Below are positions 22,361 through 27,331 of a stretch of DNA of 27,331 nucleotides, piece after piece. The notes under the pieces are model-generated. The model was not told the origin of the DNA, made no database searches, and worked only from the letters and a program-made list of their open reading frames with translations. A program made the position numbers and the translations under genes. This stretch comes from a virus. The stretch lies in the IMG/VR virus record IMGVR_UViG_3300025913_000094, positions 1 to 27,331 of that record. One strand, written 5' to 3'. Every line of letters starts with the position of its first letter. Position 1 is the stretch's first letter.

Positions 22361-22674
22361 GCCGCGCGCCTGGCGTTGTGCTGCAACCGCGTCTCGAACA
22401 GGCCGGCGCGATCGGGGAATGTGTCGGCGTACAACCGCGCCATGTCCGGCGCGTAGTTGTTGTTGACCTTGAACTCGCCGCCAACTTCCGCGAGCGCGGT
22501 TTCATGGCGCAAGTATTCGATGATCGTGCGCGCCGACCAGTGGCGATGACCGCGACTCCAGACCTTGTCGGCTTCGGCGCAGAACCGATCCCAGATCGCA
22601 GGGTTCGCAGCAAGCCACGACGCGAAGTCGTTTCGGAACTTGCTGCGGTCGAAGGTGAGCGGAAGCTGTGTCAT
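22357..22674 (-). CDS. Conserved phage protein of unknown function
   Basis: A 105-aa protein with the motif order NPAIWDRF, SARTIIEYLRHET, FKVNNNYAPDMARLY and LFETR, a combination I know from small proteins spread widely in lambdoid phages and prophages (usually unnamed). The acidic and aromatic pattern and NNNYA segment may be a binding site. It overlaps the methyltransferase stop by ATGA. Confidence 0.7.
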   Translation of the reverse strand: MTQLPLTFDRSKFRNDFASWLAANPAIWDRFCAEADKVWSRGHRHWSARTIIEYLRHETALAEVGGEFKVNNNYAPDMARLYADTFPDRAGLFETRLQHNARRAA

Positions 22675-23492
22675 GCGACCGCCTGCGCTTCGGCGTTAGC
22701 GAACGCGAATGCCGGTTGCGTTGCATGGATACGTGCGTTGGCGATCGCGGCATAGGCCGGATCAAGTTCAATGCCATTGAAACGGAAACCTTCGGCCCGT
22801 GCCGCGCGACCAGTCGAACCGCTGCCGGTGAATGGATCGAGGATCAAGCCGCCTGGCGGTGTCACGAGTCGGCACAGCCAGCGCATCAGATCATGTGGCT
22901 TGACGGTCGGGTGGTTGTTCGCGCGCGGCGTGCTATGGCTTCCCGGAATATCCCAGCACCGCCCATCGCCACTCGGGCCATGCACCTTTGTTGGCTCTAC
23001 TCCTTCACAGCCCCAGTTCCGATCCTCGCGGTCGGCTTTGGCGCAATAGAAGAATCGTGCCGCGTTTCCGTTGTCGCCGCGCGGAAGGCTCGCTACCGAT
23101 CGCCCCATGTCTCCGTAGGCGTTCTTGAACGGGCTACTAGGCTCTGCTCCGGTGACTGCTCCGGACTGTCCGGCGCTATCGGGGAAGACGGCAAGAACTT
23201 CATCGCTGCCGTCGTGCACGAGATTGGCCGGCCACCTGCCGGCCGGGTCACCACCACGTTGCCCGGGCGTCGCTGCGGAGTTCGTCGCTCCGGATGCGGC
23301 GTAGCGTCGGGCGGCGCTGGCCTCGCCGTCCCTGCCGCGACCTTCGTTGGCGTGCATCGCGTCCCACGTACGGCCTGCGCCGGTTCTCAACGCTTCGTCC
23401 GTCTGGATCCTGCACCCGTCGATATTCAGAGCACCCGTGCCGAATCGCTGCACGTTCGATGCGACCGTCCCGATCAGGGGCTTACGCGCCAT
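22671..23492 (-). CDS. DNA methyltransferase, C-terminal part (after the frameshift)
   Basis: The frame is open from about 23540 and joins the N-terminal part at a G10 tract; the ATG at 23492 (MARKPLIG) is the first start inside it. It carries the target-recognition region and, near the end, the AdoMet-binding motif LDPFTGSGSTGRAARA followed by FNGIELD, after the catalytic motif of the other part (beta-class order). The wording GYGTALKPAWEPIIMARKP, which is nearly invariant in related enzymes, is readable only across the junction. The joined protein would have 390 aa, and the total span of 1174 nt is exactly one base too long. It would methylate adenine N6 or cytosine N4. As it stands in this sequence, it is probably not made or only as a fragment. 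Confidence 0.8.
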   Translation of the reverse strand: MARKPLIGTVASNVQRFGTGALNIDGCRIQTDEALRTGAGRTWDAMHANEGRGRDGEASAARRYAASGATNSAATPGQRGGDPAGRWPANLVHDGSDEVLAVFPDSAGQSGAVTGAEPSSPFKNAYGDMGRSVASLPRGDNGNAARFFYCAKADREDRNWGCEGVEPTKVHGPSGDGRCWDIPGSHSTPRANNHPTVKPHDLMRWLCRLVTPPGGLILDPFTGSGSTGRAARAEGFRFNGIELDPAYAAIANARIHATQPAFAFANAEAQAVA

Positions 23493-23844
23493 GATGATCG
23501 GCTCCCATGCGGGTTTCAGCGCGGTGCCATACCCCCCCCCCGATGTTCTTGGACTTCGGGAAACCCGAGCCGTACACCCACATCAGCGTGTCGCGAATCT
23601 CCCAGCCGGCATCCTCGATCGCGACCATCAGTCGGTGAAAGGTGCGCGTGCCGCCGAATGCGAGCAGGTGAGCGCCGGGCTTGGCGACGCGCAGCATTTC
23701 CTGCCAGAAACGAGTGCCTGGCACAACACGATCCCAGTCCTTGACCATGAAACCGATGCCGTACGGCGGGTCGGTCACGATCGCATCGACTGACGCGGGA
23801 TCGAGCGTTGGCAGGATGTCCAAGCAATTGCCAATGGCGATCAT
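23482..23844 (-). CDS. DNA methyltransferase, N-terminal part (ends after the frameshift)
   Basis: Starts at the ATG at 23844 (ATGA overlap with the CII-like gene). The 120-aa product begins MIAIGNCLDILPTLDPASVDAI and has the catalytic motif DPPYGIGF (residues 25-32), then LMVAIEDAGWEIRDTLMWVYGSGFPKSKNIGG. After the G10 tract the frame gives a foreign tail (VWHRAETRMGADHHGA) and stops. Removing one G puts it into the frame of the C-terminal part. Such enzymes in phages usually protect their DNA against host restriction. This could be a sequencing or assembly slip, a real lesion, or phase variation. Confidence 0.8.
   Translation of the reverse strand: MIAIGNCLDILPTLDPASVDAIVTDPPYGIGFMVKDWDRVVPGTRFWQEMLRVAKPGAHLLAFGGTRTFHRLMVAIEDAGWEIRDTLMWVYGSGFPKSKNIGGGVWHRAETRMGADHHGA
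23532..23541. repeat. G10 homopolymer (C10 on plus strand) causing the methyltransferase frameshift
   Basis: Ten consecutive C on the plus strand. On the coding strand AAC-ATC-G10-TA reads out of frame; nine G give AAC ATC GGG GGG GGG TAT GGC and the expected protein. Long G tracts are classic slip sites. Confidence 0.95.
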
Positions 23845-24721: not shown

Positions 24722-24943
24722 TCAGGCTGCCCGCTCGGTGGATTGCGGGGATGGAACGAACACGTCAGGCCGCAGCAGTTCAAGAAACTGACGGCGCGCA
24801 TCAGGAAATCCGGTCTCTTTCCATCCCGTGACGGATGGTGGCTTGACCTTGCACAGCCTCGCGACCTTCGTCGTCCCGCCGAGAAGTTGGATCACCCGGC
24901 GAGCCTCCGCAGCTTTCAATTCAATTGCGTCCATATTTCGCAC
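24722..24943 (-). CDS. cro: Cro-like repressor
   Basis: A 73-aa protein divergent from cI. Residues about 20-45 (LLGGTTKVARLCKVKPPSVTGWKETG) are a helix-turn-helix whose recognition part K-x-P-P-S-V-T-x-W is the same as in the CI-like protein, so both should read the same operators. I choose the GTG at 24943 because AAGGAA lies 8 nt before it; for the ATG at 24934 the spacing is too long. That ribosome site lies inside operator O1. Such proteins turn off cI and reduce early transcription during lytic growth. Confidence 0.82.
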   Translation of the reverse strand: MRNMDAIELKAAEARRVIQLLGGTTKVARLCKVKPPSVTGWKETGFPDARRQFLELLRPDVFVPSPQSTERAA

Positions 24944-24944
24944 A

Positions 24945-24958
24945 TTAGGCGTTCCTTA
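24945..24958. promoter_or_regulatory. Operator O1 (TTAGGCGTTCCTTA)
   Basis: First of three similar inverted repeats between cro and cI, of form TTAGG-N4-CCTAA with one mismatched position in the right arm. Centre at 24951.5. It overlaps the cro Shine-Dalgarno. Confidence 0.75.
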
Positions 24959-24969
24959 CATCAAATGCA

Positions 24970-24983
24970 ATAGGCAGTCCTTC
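24970..24983. promoter_or_regulatory. Operator O2 (ATAGGCAGTCCTTC)
   Basis: The weakest of the three copies, centred at 24976.5, exactly 25 bp from each neighbour. A possible cro promoter on the minus strand (TTGGAA at 24981-24986, 17 bp, TGATGT at 24958-24963) overlaps it; the -10 is poor. Confidence 0.7.
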
Positions 24984-24994
24984 CAAATGCAGGT

Positions 24995-25008
24995 TTAGGC
25001 TTCCCTAA
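24995..25008. promoter_or_regulatory. Operator O3 (TTAGGCTTCCCTAA)
   Basis: A perfect TTAGG/CCTAA inverted repeat, centred at 25001.5. Its last base is the A of the cI start codon, so a bound repressor would block cI transcription or early elongation. Confidence 0.78.
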
Positions 25009-25697
25009 TGGACACGACTTTTGCTCAACGATTGGCCCAAGCGATGGAGGGCCCGCCTAAGGTCTCTCAGGCCGCCCTAGCCCGCGCCTGTGGCGTCAAG
25101 CCGCCCTCAGTAACCGATTGGCTGTCGGGGCGCACTAAGACGCTTGCTGGGCCGAATCTGTTGAAGGCTGCGCGATTCCTTGGAGTGTCGCCAGACTGGC
25201 TCGCTTCGGCGAAAGGGCCGATGCACTTGAAGGGAGCTAACCCGTCACGCTATCAAATCGCGGAAGCTGGCGAAGATGACGCGGTAGAAATCCCGTTGGA
25301 CACAACAAGAGGATCATGCGGCGGTGGATCATTTAATCACGAGGCCGAAAAGCTCCCGCCGTTGTTGAAGGAGCCTTCGTGGTTCCGGCGCTACAAGATC
25401 AAGCCTAAGGATGCGCTCGCGGTGTGGGCTGATGGCGACAGCATGGCCGACTTTATTGTGGACGGCGATATTGTTGTCTTCGACAAGTCGAAAGTAGCGC
25501 CTCGCTCAGGCCAGATATTTCTTATCGAACACCCAGACGGATTGCGCATCAAGAAGTTACGCCGAGAACTAGGTGGGACGTGGGTTTTAGAGAGCAACAA
25601 CGCGGACAAAAGGCGGTTCCCGGATGAGCGAATTACCGAGGAGCATGCTGACTTGCTTGTGATCCGCGGCGAGTTCGTTTACCGGCAAGGGGGATAG
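25008..25697 (+). CDS. cI: CI-like repressor with LexA-type autoprotease domain
   Basis: A 229-aa prophage repressor. Residues about 19-43 (KVSQAALARACGVKPPSVTDWLSGR) are a helix-turn-helix. The C-terminal S24 part has a cleavage-site-like Cys104-Gly105, the catalytic Ser145 in DGDSMADF and the Lys182 in LRIKKL; DGDIVVFDKS and LIEHPDGLRIKKL are typical. It should be cleaved on RecA activation, so the prophage is probably SOS-inducible. The leader is short, with only a weak AGG before the ATG, which starts inside operator O3. It is transcribed away from cro together with the next gene. Confidence 0.92.
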   Translation: MDTTFAQRLAQAMEGPPKVSQAALARACGVKPPSVTDWLSGRTKTLAGPNLLKAARFLGVSPDWLASAKGPMHLKGANPSRYQIAEAGEDDAVEIPLDTTRGSCGGGSFNHEAEKLPPLLKEPSWFRRYKIKPKDALAVWADGDSMADFIVDGDIVVFDKSKVAPRSGQIFLIEHPDGLRIKKLRRELGGTWVLESNNADKRRFPDERITEEHADLLVIRGEFVYRQGG

Positions 25698-25698
25698 C

Positions 25699-26184
25699 AT
25701 GACCCGACTAGGCGTTCGCGCTTCAATCGCTTGGACAATCACACTGGCGCTCGATTACGGGTATTGCCTGGTTGCCGCCTATTTCCTCGATCGCTCCAAC
25801 TTCTGGATGACATCGCTTGTATTCTTTATGGGCCTGCTCGTTGTGTTGATCGCGCTGTCGATACGCCGCACCATCGCGTTCACTATTGTGCATTCGATGA
25901 CATCCGAGCTACACGCCGTCAGCGTCGCCGAAGCTTTGGCGAAAGCGAAGATTCCACAAGGCGTTGTGCTATCTACTTCTGAGGGCTATTTAGCTCAGAT
26001 CGCTGATGACGAGACATTGCCAGTGCCAACGCGGATTGCTGCTGCGATCCATGCCGGGCGCATCGCCGGCGCCAAAGAGGCCGCCCTTTTCCGGGGTTTC
26101 CTGTACGACCAAACGTGCCAGAAGGCGCTGGTGACGACTGGCGTCAAATGGCCTGAGTCGCCGGCAACGGCGACCGAGATTTAA
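25699..26184 (+). CDS. Two-TM membrane protein coupled to cI, superinfection-exclusion candidate
   Basis: A 161-aa protein starting 1 nt after the cI stop with GGGGG about 5 nt upstream, so it is probably made in the lysogen from the cI transcript. Residues about 8-30 (SIAWTITLALDYGYCLVAAY) and 34-55 (FWMTSLVFFMGLLVVLIALS) are membrane helices, followed by a soluble Ala-rich helical part of about 100 residues (VAEALAKAKIPQGVVLS; IAAAIHAGRIAGAKEAAL). Place and topology are like lambda rexB or other exclusion proteins, but there is no sequence likeness that I can see. Confidence 0.7.
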   Translation: MTRLGVRASIAWTITLALDYGYCLVAAYFLDRSNFWMTSLVFFMGLLVVLIALSIRRTIAFTIVHSMTSELHAVSVAEALAKAKIPQGVVLSTSEGYLAQIADDETLPVPTRIAAAIHAGRIAGAKEAALFRGFLYDQTCQKALVTTGVKWPESPATATEI

Positions 26185-26208: not shown

Positions 26209-26237
26209 TTGACTGAAAAAAAGTTAGGCCATCCTAT
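26209..26237 (+). promoter_or_regulatory. Probable early promoter (pL-like)
   Basis: TTGACT (26209-26214), a 17-bp spacer and TCCTAT (26232-26237). The -35 box is good, the -10 is weak. Operator O4 covers the end of the spacer and the -10, which supports a repressor-controlled promoter. Confidence 0.5.
26224..26237. promoter_or_regulatory. Operator O4 (TTAGGCCATCCTAT)
   Basis: A fourth copy of the cI/cro operator, upstream of the 162-aa gene, centred at 26230.5. It matches TTAGG-N4-CCTAA at 9 of 10 arm bases. Confidence 0.75.
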
Positions 26238-26248
26238 TGCAAAATGAA

Positions 26249-26262
26249 TAAGGAATGCCTAA
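26249..26262. promoter_or_regulatory. Operator O5 (TAAGGAATGCCTAA)
   Basis: A fifth copy, in the opposite orientation like O1, centred at 26255.5, exactly 25 bp from O4. It lies before the 162-aa start codon. Confidence 0.75.
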
Positions 26263-26288: not shown

Positions 26289-26777
26289 ATGAAAAACCAG
26301 CCGCAGCAAATGTTCCGCCAGGGCGACGCACTGATTCGCGCCGTCGCCGCGATCCCCGCCAACGCCACCGACGTAACCCCAAAGGGCGAGCGCATCGTCC
26401 TCGCGCATGGCGAAGTCACAGGCCACGCGCACGCCATCGCCGAAGGCGAAGCCCGCGAGTTCTCGATGCAAGACGCATCGGGTGTCGTGACACGCTTCCT
26501 GCAATCGCTTGGCAAGCACCAGCCGGCACCGTCGCGGATTCTGGAGCGTCTACAGAACTCGTTCGGCGAGCAACTGATGCTCGACACCGCAGCTGGCCCA
26601 ACGATGTTCGCCGCAAACGATGTCGAAGATGCTGGCGCCGTCGCAACGCCGCGCGCGCCGTTCTCGCGCTTGGTGCACGAAGAGCATGCCGCACACGGCC
26701 TGCTGGCCGGCTGCTACGGCATCAACAACCCCCAGCGCGAGTACCACCCGGAAGAACTTCGGAACGTGGTGGACTGA
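26289..26777 (+). CDS. Early protein with GHAH motif, unknown function
   Basis: A 162-aa protein starting MKNQPQQMFRQGDALI, preferred over the in-frame ATG at 26244 because GGGAG stands 5 nt before it and the earlier ATG lies between the operators. The N-terminal region has LIRAVAAIPANATDVTPKGERIVLAHGEVTGHAHAI, where 'LAxGExTGHAH' is a pattern I remember in proteins encoded next to DUF6745 genes. The C-terminal part ends with GCYGINNPQREYHPEELRNVVD, of the type '...QREY.P...R.V.D'. His-x-His may bind metal. It is the first gene of the pL-like operon, followed 1 nt later by the DUF6745-like gene. Confidence 0.65.
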   Translation: MKNQPQQMFRQGDALIRAVAAIPANATDVTPKGERIVLAHGEVTGHAHAIAEGEAREFSMQDASGVVTRFLQSLGKHQPAPSRILERLQNSFGEQLMLDTAAGPTMFAANDVEDAGAVATPRAPFSRLVHEEHAAHGLLAGCYGINNPQREYHPEELRNVVD

Positions 26778-26778
26778 C

Positions 26779-27331
26779 ATGGCCGCCAAGACCCAACTCA
26801 TCACCTCGCTCAGCGAGGCACAGAAGGCCGAATTCCCGCGTTTCGTCCGTAAGTGGACGGAGATCGGCCTGTGCACGAAGCCGGCTGATCGCGAGAAGGC
26901 CGAGCGCGCGATCAAGGGCCTGTACGCGCTCGCCAAGCTGCGCGAGCCGCGCGTGATCTGGCTTCCGTGCCCGATCAGTGCGGCGCTGGCATCGGTTGTG
27001 TACGCGACGCTGATCGCGAAGCGGCTTGTTGCCGTTGAGCCGAGCGCAGCGAGGCCCGTGGACAGCGCCGTGTACAGCGCCGCGGGCAGCGCCGTGGGCA
27101 GCGCCGTGGGCAGCGCCGTGCGCAGCGCCGTGTACAGCGCCGTGCGCAGCGCCGTGTACGGCGCCGTGGACAGCGCCGTGTACGGCGCCGTGGGCAGCGC
27201 CGTGGACAGCGCCGTGTACAGCGCCGTGCGCAGCGCCGTGTACGGCGCCGTGGACAGCGCCGTGTACGGCGCCGTGGGCAGCGCCGTGGACAGCGCCGTG
27301 TACAGCGCCGTGCGCAGCGCCGTGTACGGCG
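26779..27331 (+). CDS. DUF6745-like protein with expanding tetrapeptide repeat (cut by window end)
   Basis: The start ATG is 1 nt after the previous stop; 184 codons are visible and the gene runs off the window. Residues 1-90 (SLSEAQKAEFPRFVRKWTEIGL, PADREKAERAIKGLYALAKLREPRVIWLPCPISAALASVVY) fit the N-terminal part of proteins I know as DUF6745. From residue about 95 a tetrapeptide repeat [DYGR]-[SG]-A-V runs to the window end, at least 22 units. Related proteins have similar 'SVxxSVxxSV' variable stretches before a C-terminal domain, which is missing here. Role unknown. The transcript is under operators O4 and O5. Confidence 0.65.
   Translation, partial: MAAKTQLITSLSEAQKAEFPRFVRKWTEIGLCTKPADREKAERAIKGLYALAKLREPRVIWLPCPISAALASVVYATLIAKRLVAVEPSAARPVDSAVYSAAGSAVGSAVGSAVRSAVYSAVRSAVYGAVDSAVYGAVGSAVDSAVYSAVRSAVYGAVDSAVYGAVGSAVDSAVYSAVRSAVYG
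27061..27331 (+). repeat. 12-bp tandem repeat with an 84-bp higher-order unit
   Basis: Units of 12 bp (NNC-AGC-GCC-GTG, sometimes GGC for AGC) run from 27061 to the end. From 27157 seven units (first residues Y,D,Y,G,D,Y,R) form an 84-bp block that is repeated exactly at 27241 and starts again at 27325. Confidence 0.95.

Follow-up and report, generated by a model that had tools for sequence, protein, structure and literature searches.

The window analysed here spans the whole of a 27,331-base virus record and ends inside a gene that has run into a tandem array coding for tetrapeptides. The question raised by this locus is whether such an array is a harmless product of repeat slippage in the DNA or a working part of a phage protein and, in the latter case, what it might do. 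The relevant features, in window coordinates, are as follows.

24722–24943 (−), small DNA-binding Cro-like protein, divergent (phrog_8008, 3.6e-10)
24945–24958 (+), operator-like site, exact match, in the repressor/Cro-like intergenic region (motif scan)
24970–24983 (+), operator-like site in the repressor/Cro-like region, 25 bp further (motif scan)
24995–25008 (+), third operator-like site of the repressor/Cro-like region, again at a 25-bp step (motif scan)
25008–25697 (+), CI-like repressor, HTH plus S24 peptidase (Pfam S24, 8e-14; HTH_3, 9e-10; phrog_4, 1e-39)
26224–26237 (+), operator-like site upstream of the partner-array operon (motif scan)
26249–26262 (−), operator-like site facing the preceding one, 25 bp away (motif scan)
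26289–26777 (+), conserved partner gene, first of the putative operon (phrog_27831-like, E = 7.2e-13)
26779–27331 (+), tetrapeptide-array gene, 5′ part only (184 codons; the contig end falls inside the array)
26779–27055 (+), N-terminal domain common to DUF6745 proteins (HMM built in this study, E = 4.5e-31)
27056–27331 (+), 12-bp tandem array of at least 22 units, coding [YDGR][SG]AV (TRF)
27123–27331 (+), 84-bp superunit (27123–27247 matches 27207–27331 exactly)

The array gene, its contig end and its putative control

The gene starts with an ATG at 26779, and its frame is open up to the contig end. The array sets in after about 92 codons. It is by far the strongest tandem array in the window, with 22.4 copies of the 12-bp unit at 27056–27324 and a score of 356 (TRF), in agreement with the original prediction of at least 22 such units; a chance origin is ruled out as an issue. 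One unit deviates, with SAA in place of SAV. The perfect 84-bp repeat that had been described was also recovered, as 125 identical bases at period 84. Short-read (de Bruijn) assemblers end contigs where a repeat exceeds their word length, and, because the 125-base identity extends to the final base of the contig, it is most likely that the record stops where the assembler met a repeat that it could not cross. The true array is probably longer than the part seen, and continues past the contig.

The gene had been called repressor-controlled. That view is supported by five operator-like sites that resemble TTAGGCNNTCCTNA, three on the repressor/Cro-like side and two before the operon; with up to two mismatches allowed, this motif has 10 matches in the window, compared with 2.3 expected. 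From these sites, the partner-array operon would appear to be under the control of a CI-type repressor, and their position, together with the gene spacing, suggests that the partner and the array gene are co-transcribed. A consensus-based search detected no sigma-70 promoter, and searches for Rfam families and tRNAs gave none. The repressor and the operon are separated by a 161-residue ORF (25699–26184, +) that contains a hydrophobic stretch and matched no family.

The DUF6745 family, its partner and separate array genes

The 92-residue N-domain was used as a query against viral contigs, and 11 relatives were retrieved with 62–82% identity to it. The domain has the pattern W..IGL.T.PADR...AI.GLY....P..IWLPCPIS and, in the window, is predicted by AF2 with a pLDDT of mostly about 80–93. 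In the full-length relatives the order is N-domain, array and C-terminal DUF6745 (Pfam PF20530, E about 1e-27 to 1e-33); all four of the full-length relatives tested scored 96–117 bits for PF20530, for which the gathering cut-off is 27 bits. Pfam gave no PF20530 match in the window's 184 codons, and the contig ends ahead of that region. The likeness to DUF6745 noted earlier for the N-terminal part needs adjusting in this respect: DUF6745 itself is C-terminal in the relatives, and what the window contains is the conserved N-domain of DUF6745 proteins. By comparison with these relatives, the missing part of the gene would be a DUF6745 beyond the contig end. The relatives hold a full protein past the array, which speaks against the frame being closed right after the window.

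When an alignment of the C-terminal region served as the query, bacterial and archaeal genomes yielded 25 loci; in viral contigs, 194 stretches were confirmed, and the best 80 of these were kept for analysis. It is apparent that DUF6745 relatives do have the same kind of array, a point on which a search had been proposed: a period-4 array is present in 87 of the 122 ORFs examined, and the other 35 have none. Complete array ORFs contain 6.5 to 61 units; 31 of the 87, including that of the window, are cut by contig ends. Two scans of viral contigs with 12-bp SAVx DNA patterns, blind to the flanks, yielded 36 stretches (with a few contigs counted twice), and 35 of these sit in ORFs with the N-domain and/or DUF6745; the lone exception consists of three units only. 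A megablast search of the window against phages returned no match, and paper searches on DUF6745 and on the repeat peptides found nothing. Certain viral contigs yielded two stretches each (L187 and L191, L189 and L196, L203 and L206, L204 and L205, L208 and L210), one with the array and DUF6745 and the other with the N-domain and the array. These pairs probably represent circular phage genomes in which the array is the sole assembly gap.

Directly upstream of the array gene in the window is the partner gene, which had been missed in the original prediction. Its product matches an iterated HMM, seeded with the window protein itself, at E = 3.7e-37. Among 107 dereplicated loci, that HMM found a partner within 800 b of DUF6745 in 96, upstream in 21 and downstream in 75; seven loci have no partner match at all, and five of the seven are cut by contig ends. 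The partner is the commonest family among 90 neighbouring ORFs (14 occurrences; next best, 3). Other neighbours include recombination and HNH nuclease genes, and no known anti-defence gene is among the top neighbour families. In 50,697 phage records, tblastn detected the partner in 10, all of which also contain DUF6745, and in an eleventh DUF6745 phage record, prophiGD102-1, the partner was found by HMM. Its conserved residues are QG, H...H..H, G.Y and RE, the invariant ones including QG, three His, one Gly, one Glu and one Arg; no convincing Pfam match was obtained. Since array-less DUF6745 members, among them the Amycolatopsis chromosomal copies, retain the partner, the partner and DUF6745 are the core and the array is a variable addition.

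The array also occurs in trans, which likewise had gone unnoticed. Several array-less DUF6745 loci hold separate ORFs of about 60–90 residues that consist of the array only, for example MKSVKKQVWDQVRNQVWNQVDDQV. A search with one such mini-array gave 35 loci, of which 27, counted among the matches listed and including a few near-duplicates, hold mini-genes. These can stand in tandem (23 in L151, 11 in L157, 10 in L149 and 9 in L141), and the stop codon of one often overlaps the start codon of the next. Of the 27 loci, 11 have DUF6745 within 5 kb of the mini-genes and another 7 have it at a different place on the contig; it is present on seven of the eight mini-gene contigs of at least 40 kb. 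None of 14 control genomes contains mini-genes. That arrays exist as separate gene families speaks for a working module rather than a linker alone. Matches of the mini-array proteins to Pfam DUF4816 and phrog_5189 were below the cut-off or weak. Tandem mini-gene families were also observed on L139, L143 and other contigs that carry an array-less DUF6745.

Change and constraint in the arrays

That the repeat number would differ among strains had been predicted, and such differences were seen directly among its relatives. L105, L120 and L121, mycobacterial-type prophages whose nearest named genome is that of M. interjectum (L029), show no differences in 303 bases of the N-domain and 0–2 in 681 bases of DUF6745, and their arrays comprise 5.5, 39.5 and 56.5 units, respectively, in unlike order. 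The unit in these prophages is TCGGCGGTC followed by GAC, GGC, TAC or CGC. Three metagenomic phages (L008, L042 and L044) have 0–1 differences in 4,600 b downstream, and their arrays diverge already a few units from the unique flank. Assembly collapse was considered as a source of this variability and was rejected for L008, L042, L044 and L045, because the unit order differs near the unique flank; the short array of L105 may have arisen in that way. L184 and L185 are identical in the protein sequence of the N-domain and have two different arrays. The scaffold changes as well, with [DA]SV[WRG] in L123, of the same mycobacterial group, against SAVx in its relatives, and at least 18 switches when 67 DUF6745 domains are placed on a tree. 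No second strain of the window's own phage was found, and variation of the array, including the difference in copy number between close relatives, is known from family members alone.

The scaffold codons are nearly uniform within arrays (59 of 4,299 are synonymous variants), and this indicates recent duplication at the DNA level, as had been proposed. The accompanying claim, that DNA-level duplication and not protein-level selection alone accounts for the repeats, requires correction in that selection on the protein is strong too, to judge from the varied SAV codon sets and the single residue alphabet. The SAV motif is spelled with about a dozen codon sets across lineages; since the lineages use different codons for it, the peptide pattern has been kept rather than the DNA. 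Other lineages have scaffolds such as SQL, SQV, DQV, DQL, GQL, ANL and AAT, and the scaffold types across arrays include SAVx, SQLx, DQVx and ATxA. The fourth position of the unit is non-modal in 61% of cases. In C-ending arrays, GAC, GGC, CGC and TAC (Asp, Gly, Arg and Tyr) constitute 83% of the variable codons and, in G-ending arrays, GGG, TGG, AGG, CGG and GAG (Gly, Trp, Arg and Glu) constitute 87%, so that under both codon endings the alphabet is aromatic, Arg, Gly and acidic. His, Asn and Ser, which are one mutation away, each account for less than 2% in C-ending arrays. A diversity-generating retroelement target was also considered, and the variable codons do not fit one: AAC represents 1.7% of the variable codons in C-ending arrays, and the four prevailing codons are unlike the AAY pattern of adenine mutagenesis.

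These results bear on two alternatives. A neutral low-complexity linker, in which slippage would have left a harmless array between two functional domains, is unlikely. Near-identical DNA repeats that expand in blocks, the wide range of lengths in complete ORFs and the existence of members without an array would all accord with it, but the motif is kept with many codon sets, the residues are restricted to one alphabet of four types from which His, Asn and Ser are nearly missing in C-ending arrays, and there are both free-standing array gene families and the precedent of mycobacteriophage Tweety, described below. Alternatively, the array might be a DNA-level element (an iteron, packaging or recombination site) and not a protein feature, as the location of 12-bp iterons in the early region would permit. 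This is highly improbable, in that unrelated DNA units yield the same peptide motif and the reading frame of the array is maintained in the same gene.

Structure predictions were obtained for the array and its flanks. In the AlphaFold model of a full-length relative (L010), the N-domain and DUF6745 are confident (pLDDT mostly >90) and the array is modelled as a helix with a pLDDT of 50–70; the window array, for which an in-register alignment was used, is modelled as a single helix with a pLDDT of about 50. A β-solenoid or helical stack had been suggested for modelling; the helix predicted is tentative at these low pLDDT values. Foldseek found nothing in the PDB at E ≤ 0.001, and a second look with VIA-align brought up nothing but long-helix look-alikes and weak rows, with Z of 6 or less. 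The DUF6745 of phage LMM01 was matched in a viral structure library, together with two uncharacterised Caudovirales fragments. PDB sequence-search matches were weak or confined to the array, and were read as low complexity or chance. A helix all along the array, a sticker-like composition (R, Y, W, G and acidic residues) and array-only genes in trans would suit a self-assembling scaffold, in which helical bundles or condensates are built from arrays and mini-arrays co-assemble with DUF6745. In view of a pLDDT of only about 50–70 in the array, this explanation is considered improbable.

A putative tunable early protein and its known counterparts

In Tweety gp54, constant ends enclose a 12-bp tetrapeptide repeat, present in 48 copies, whose variation falls on the first and second positions of codons; Che8 (gp57) has 26 copies and PMC (gp51) has 15 (PMC2884959, PMC9262239, PMC8549241). 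In experiments by others, escape mutants in which the number of gp54 repeats has risen or fallen are reported to overcome the Phrann gp29/gp30 defence, repeat number thus tuning the counter-defence by a mechanism called obscure (PMC2884959, PMC9262239, PMC8549241). The gp54 array, [S/Y]AA[G/W/Q] in the register used here, resembles the SAVx of the present family, and in both cases a 12-bp, four-residue array with variable positions lies between constant ends. There are two variable residues per unit in gp54, which, like the window gene, is an early gene (of the right arm) near a repressor and Cro. Unlike the window gene, gp54 has neither the N-domain nor DUF6745 (HMM), and the Tweety genome is without the partner family; the analogy is therefore one of architecture. 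The window gene is thus gp54-like in design and outside the gp54 family.

The hypothesis presented here, the chances of which are judged to be about even, is that the gene encodes an early, tunable interaction protein, probably gp54-like in serving counter-defence. One phage early protein would combine a hypervariable tetrapeptide array with a constant domain on either side, the N-domain and the C-terminal DUF6745, and the small partner protein would be made from the same repressor-controlled operon. Recombination or slippage at the 12-bp repeats would alter the length and unit order of the array in single steps with the frame intact, both ends of the protein staying constant. The array would then be a fast-evolving, tunable interaction surface or spacer, with a role at the start of lytic growth against host- or prophage-encoded defence, and its length or letter order may set the target. 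The existence of mini-genes and of the partner suggests a binding module in preference to a simple ruler. Against this reading, array-less DUF6745 with a partner occurs in phages and in Amycolatopsis chromosomes, which indicates that the core needs no array of its own to act, and the top neighbour families include no known anti-defence gene. A wider version, possible although rather doubtful, is that the two-gene core (phrog_27831-like plus DUF6745) is a phage system not described before, which uses a string of combinatorial four-residue modules drawn from the small residue alphabet, in cis as an expandable array or in trans as tandem mini-protein families, with recombination rewriting target recognition, and that Tweety gp54 is an independent case.

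The opposite role, that of a prophage defence or superinfection-exclusion sensor whose array recognises invading phage and whose effector is DUF6745 with its partner, is quite unlikely. The hypervariable segment does look recognition-like, and the two-gene module is kept in bacterial chromosomes too, but the operator-like sites suggest silence in the lysogen, and PADLOC gave no convincing match, its one match, to a nuclease model, falling on the array alone.

As regards the counter-defence hypothesis, one mycobacteriophage gene of such design was already known to retune counter-defence via repeat number. What is new is a much larger family of the same design, from many environments and without detectable homology to gp54 outside the array, which adds strain-level change in copy number and order, a residue alphabet, a near-invariable partner and arrays as separate genes. 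The family points to an unrecognised fast route by which phages may vary an interaction protein and, given natural separate-gene arrays, the choice between ruler and binding module is now directly testable.

Other systems offer partial likenesses. Microcystis phage LMM01 gp174 has a C-terminal DUF6745, an N-terminal part of similar pattern and a partner nearby; in LMM01 and related Microcystis phages, unlike the window family, DUF6745 is without an array. Pentapeptide-repeat proteins also have short-period repeats with conserved small and hydrophobic positions, at period 5 as against 4 here, and no Pfam pentapeptide-repeat match was found in the window or the relatives examined. Variable region 2 of bbp36 in Bordetella phage BMP-1 is reported to be a variable-number in-frame repeat in a non-essential gene (PMC2884959); by description, it has a 24-bp unit with spacers, versus 12 bp here.

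Some minor observations were made in the course of the analysis. A Deinococcus plasmid (L136, 5374–6375) encodes a protein annotated as DUF6745, with a leucine-rich-repeat-like front and an end that corresponds to the last part of DUF6745, adjoining an STM4011–STM4015 gene cluster. Two records of Nocardia farcinica NCTC11134 (L137 and L138) contain near-identical DUF6745 array genes in one strain, with arrays that are unlike and one of them frame-shifted. In the window itself, adjoining ORFs at 22671–23492 and 23482–23844 (−) match different parts of the DNA methyltransferase phrog_67, which suggests that 22671–23844 is a single methyltransferase gene whose two parts have been separated by a frameshift or an error in sequencing.
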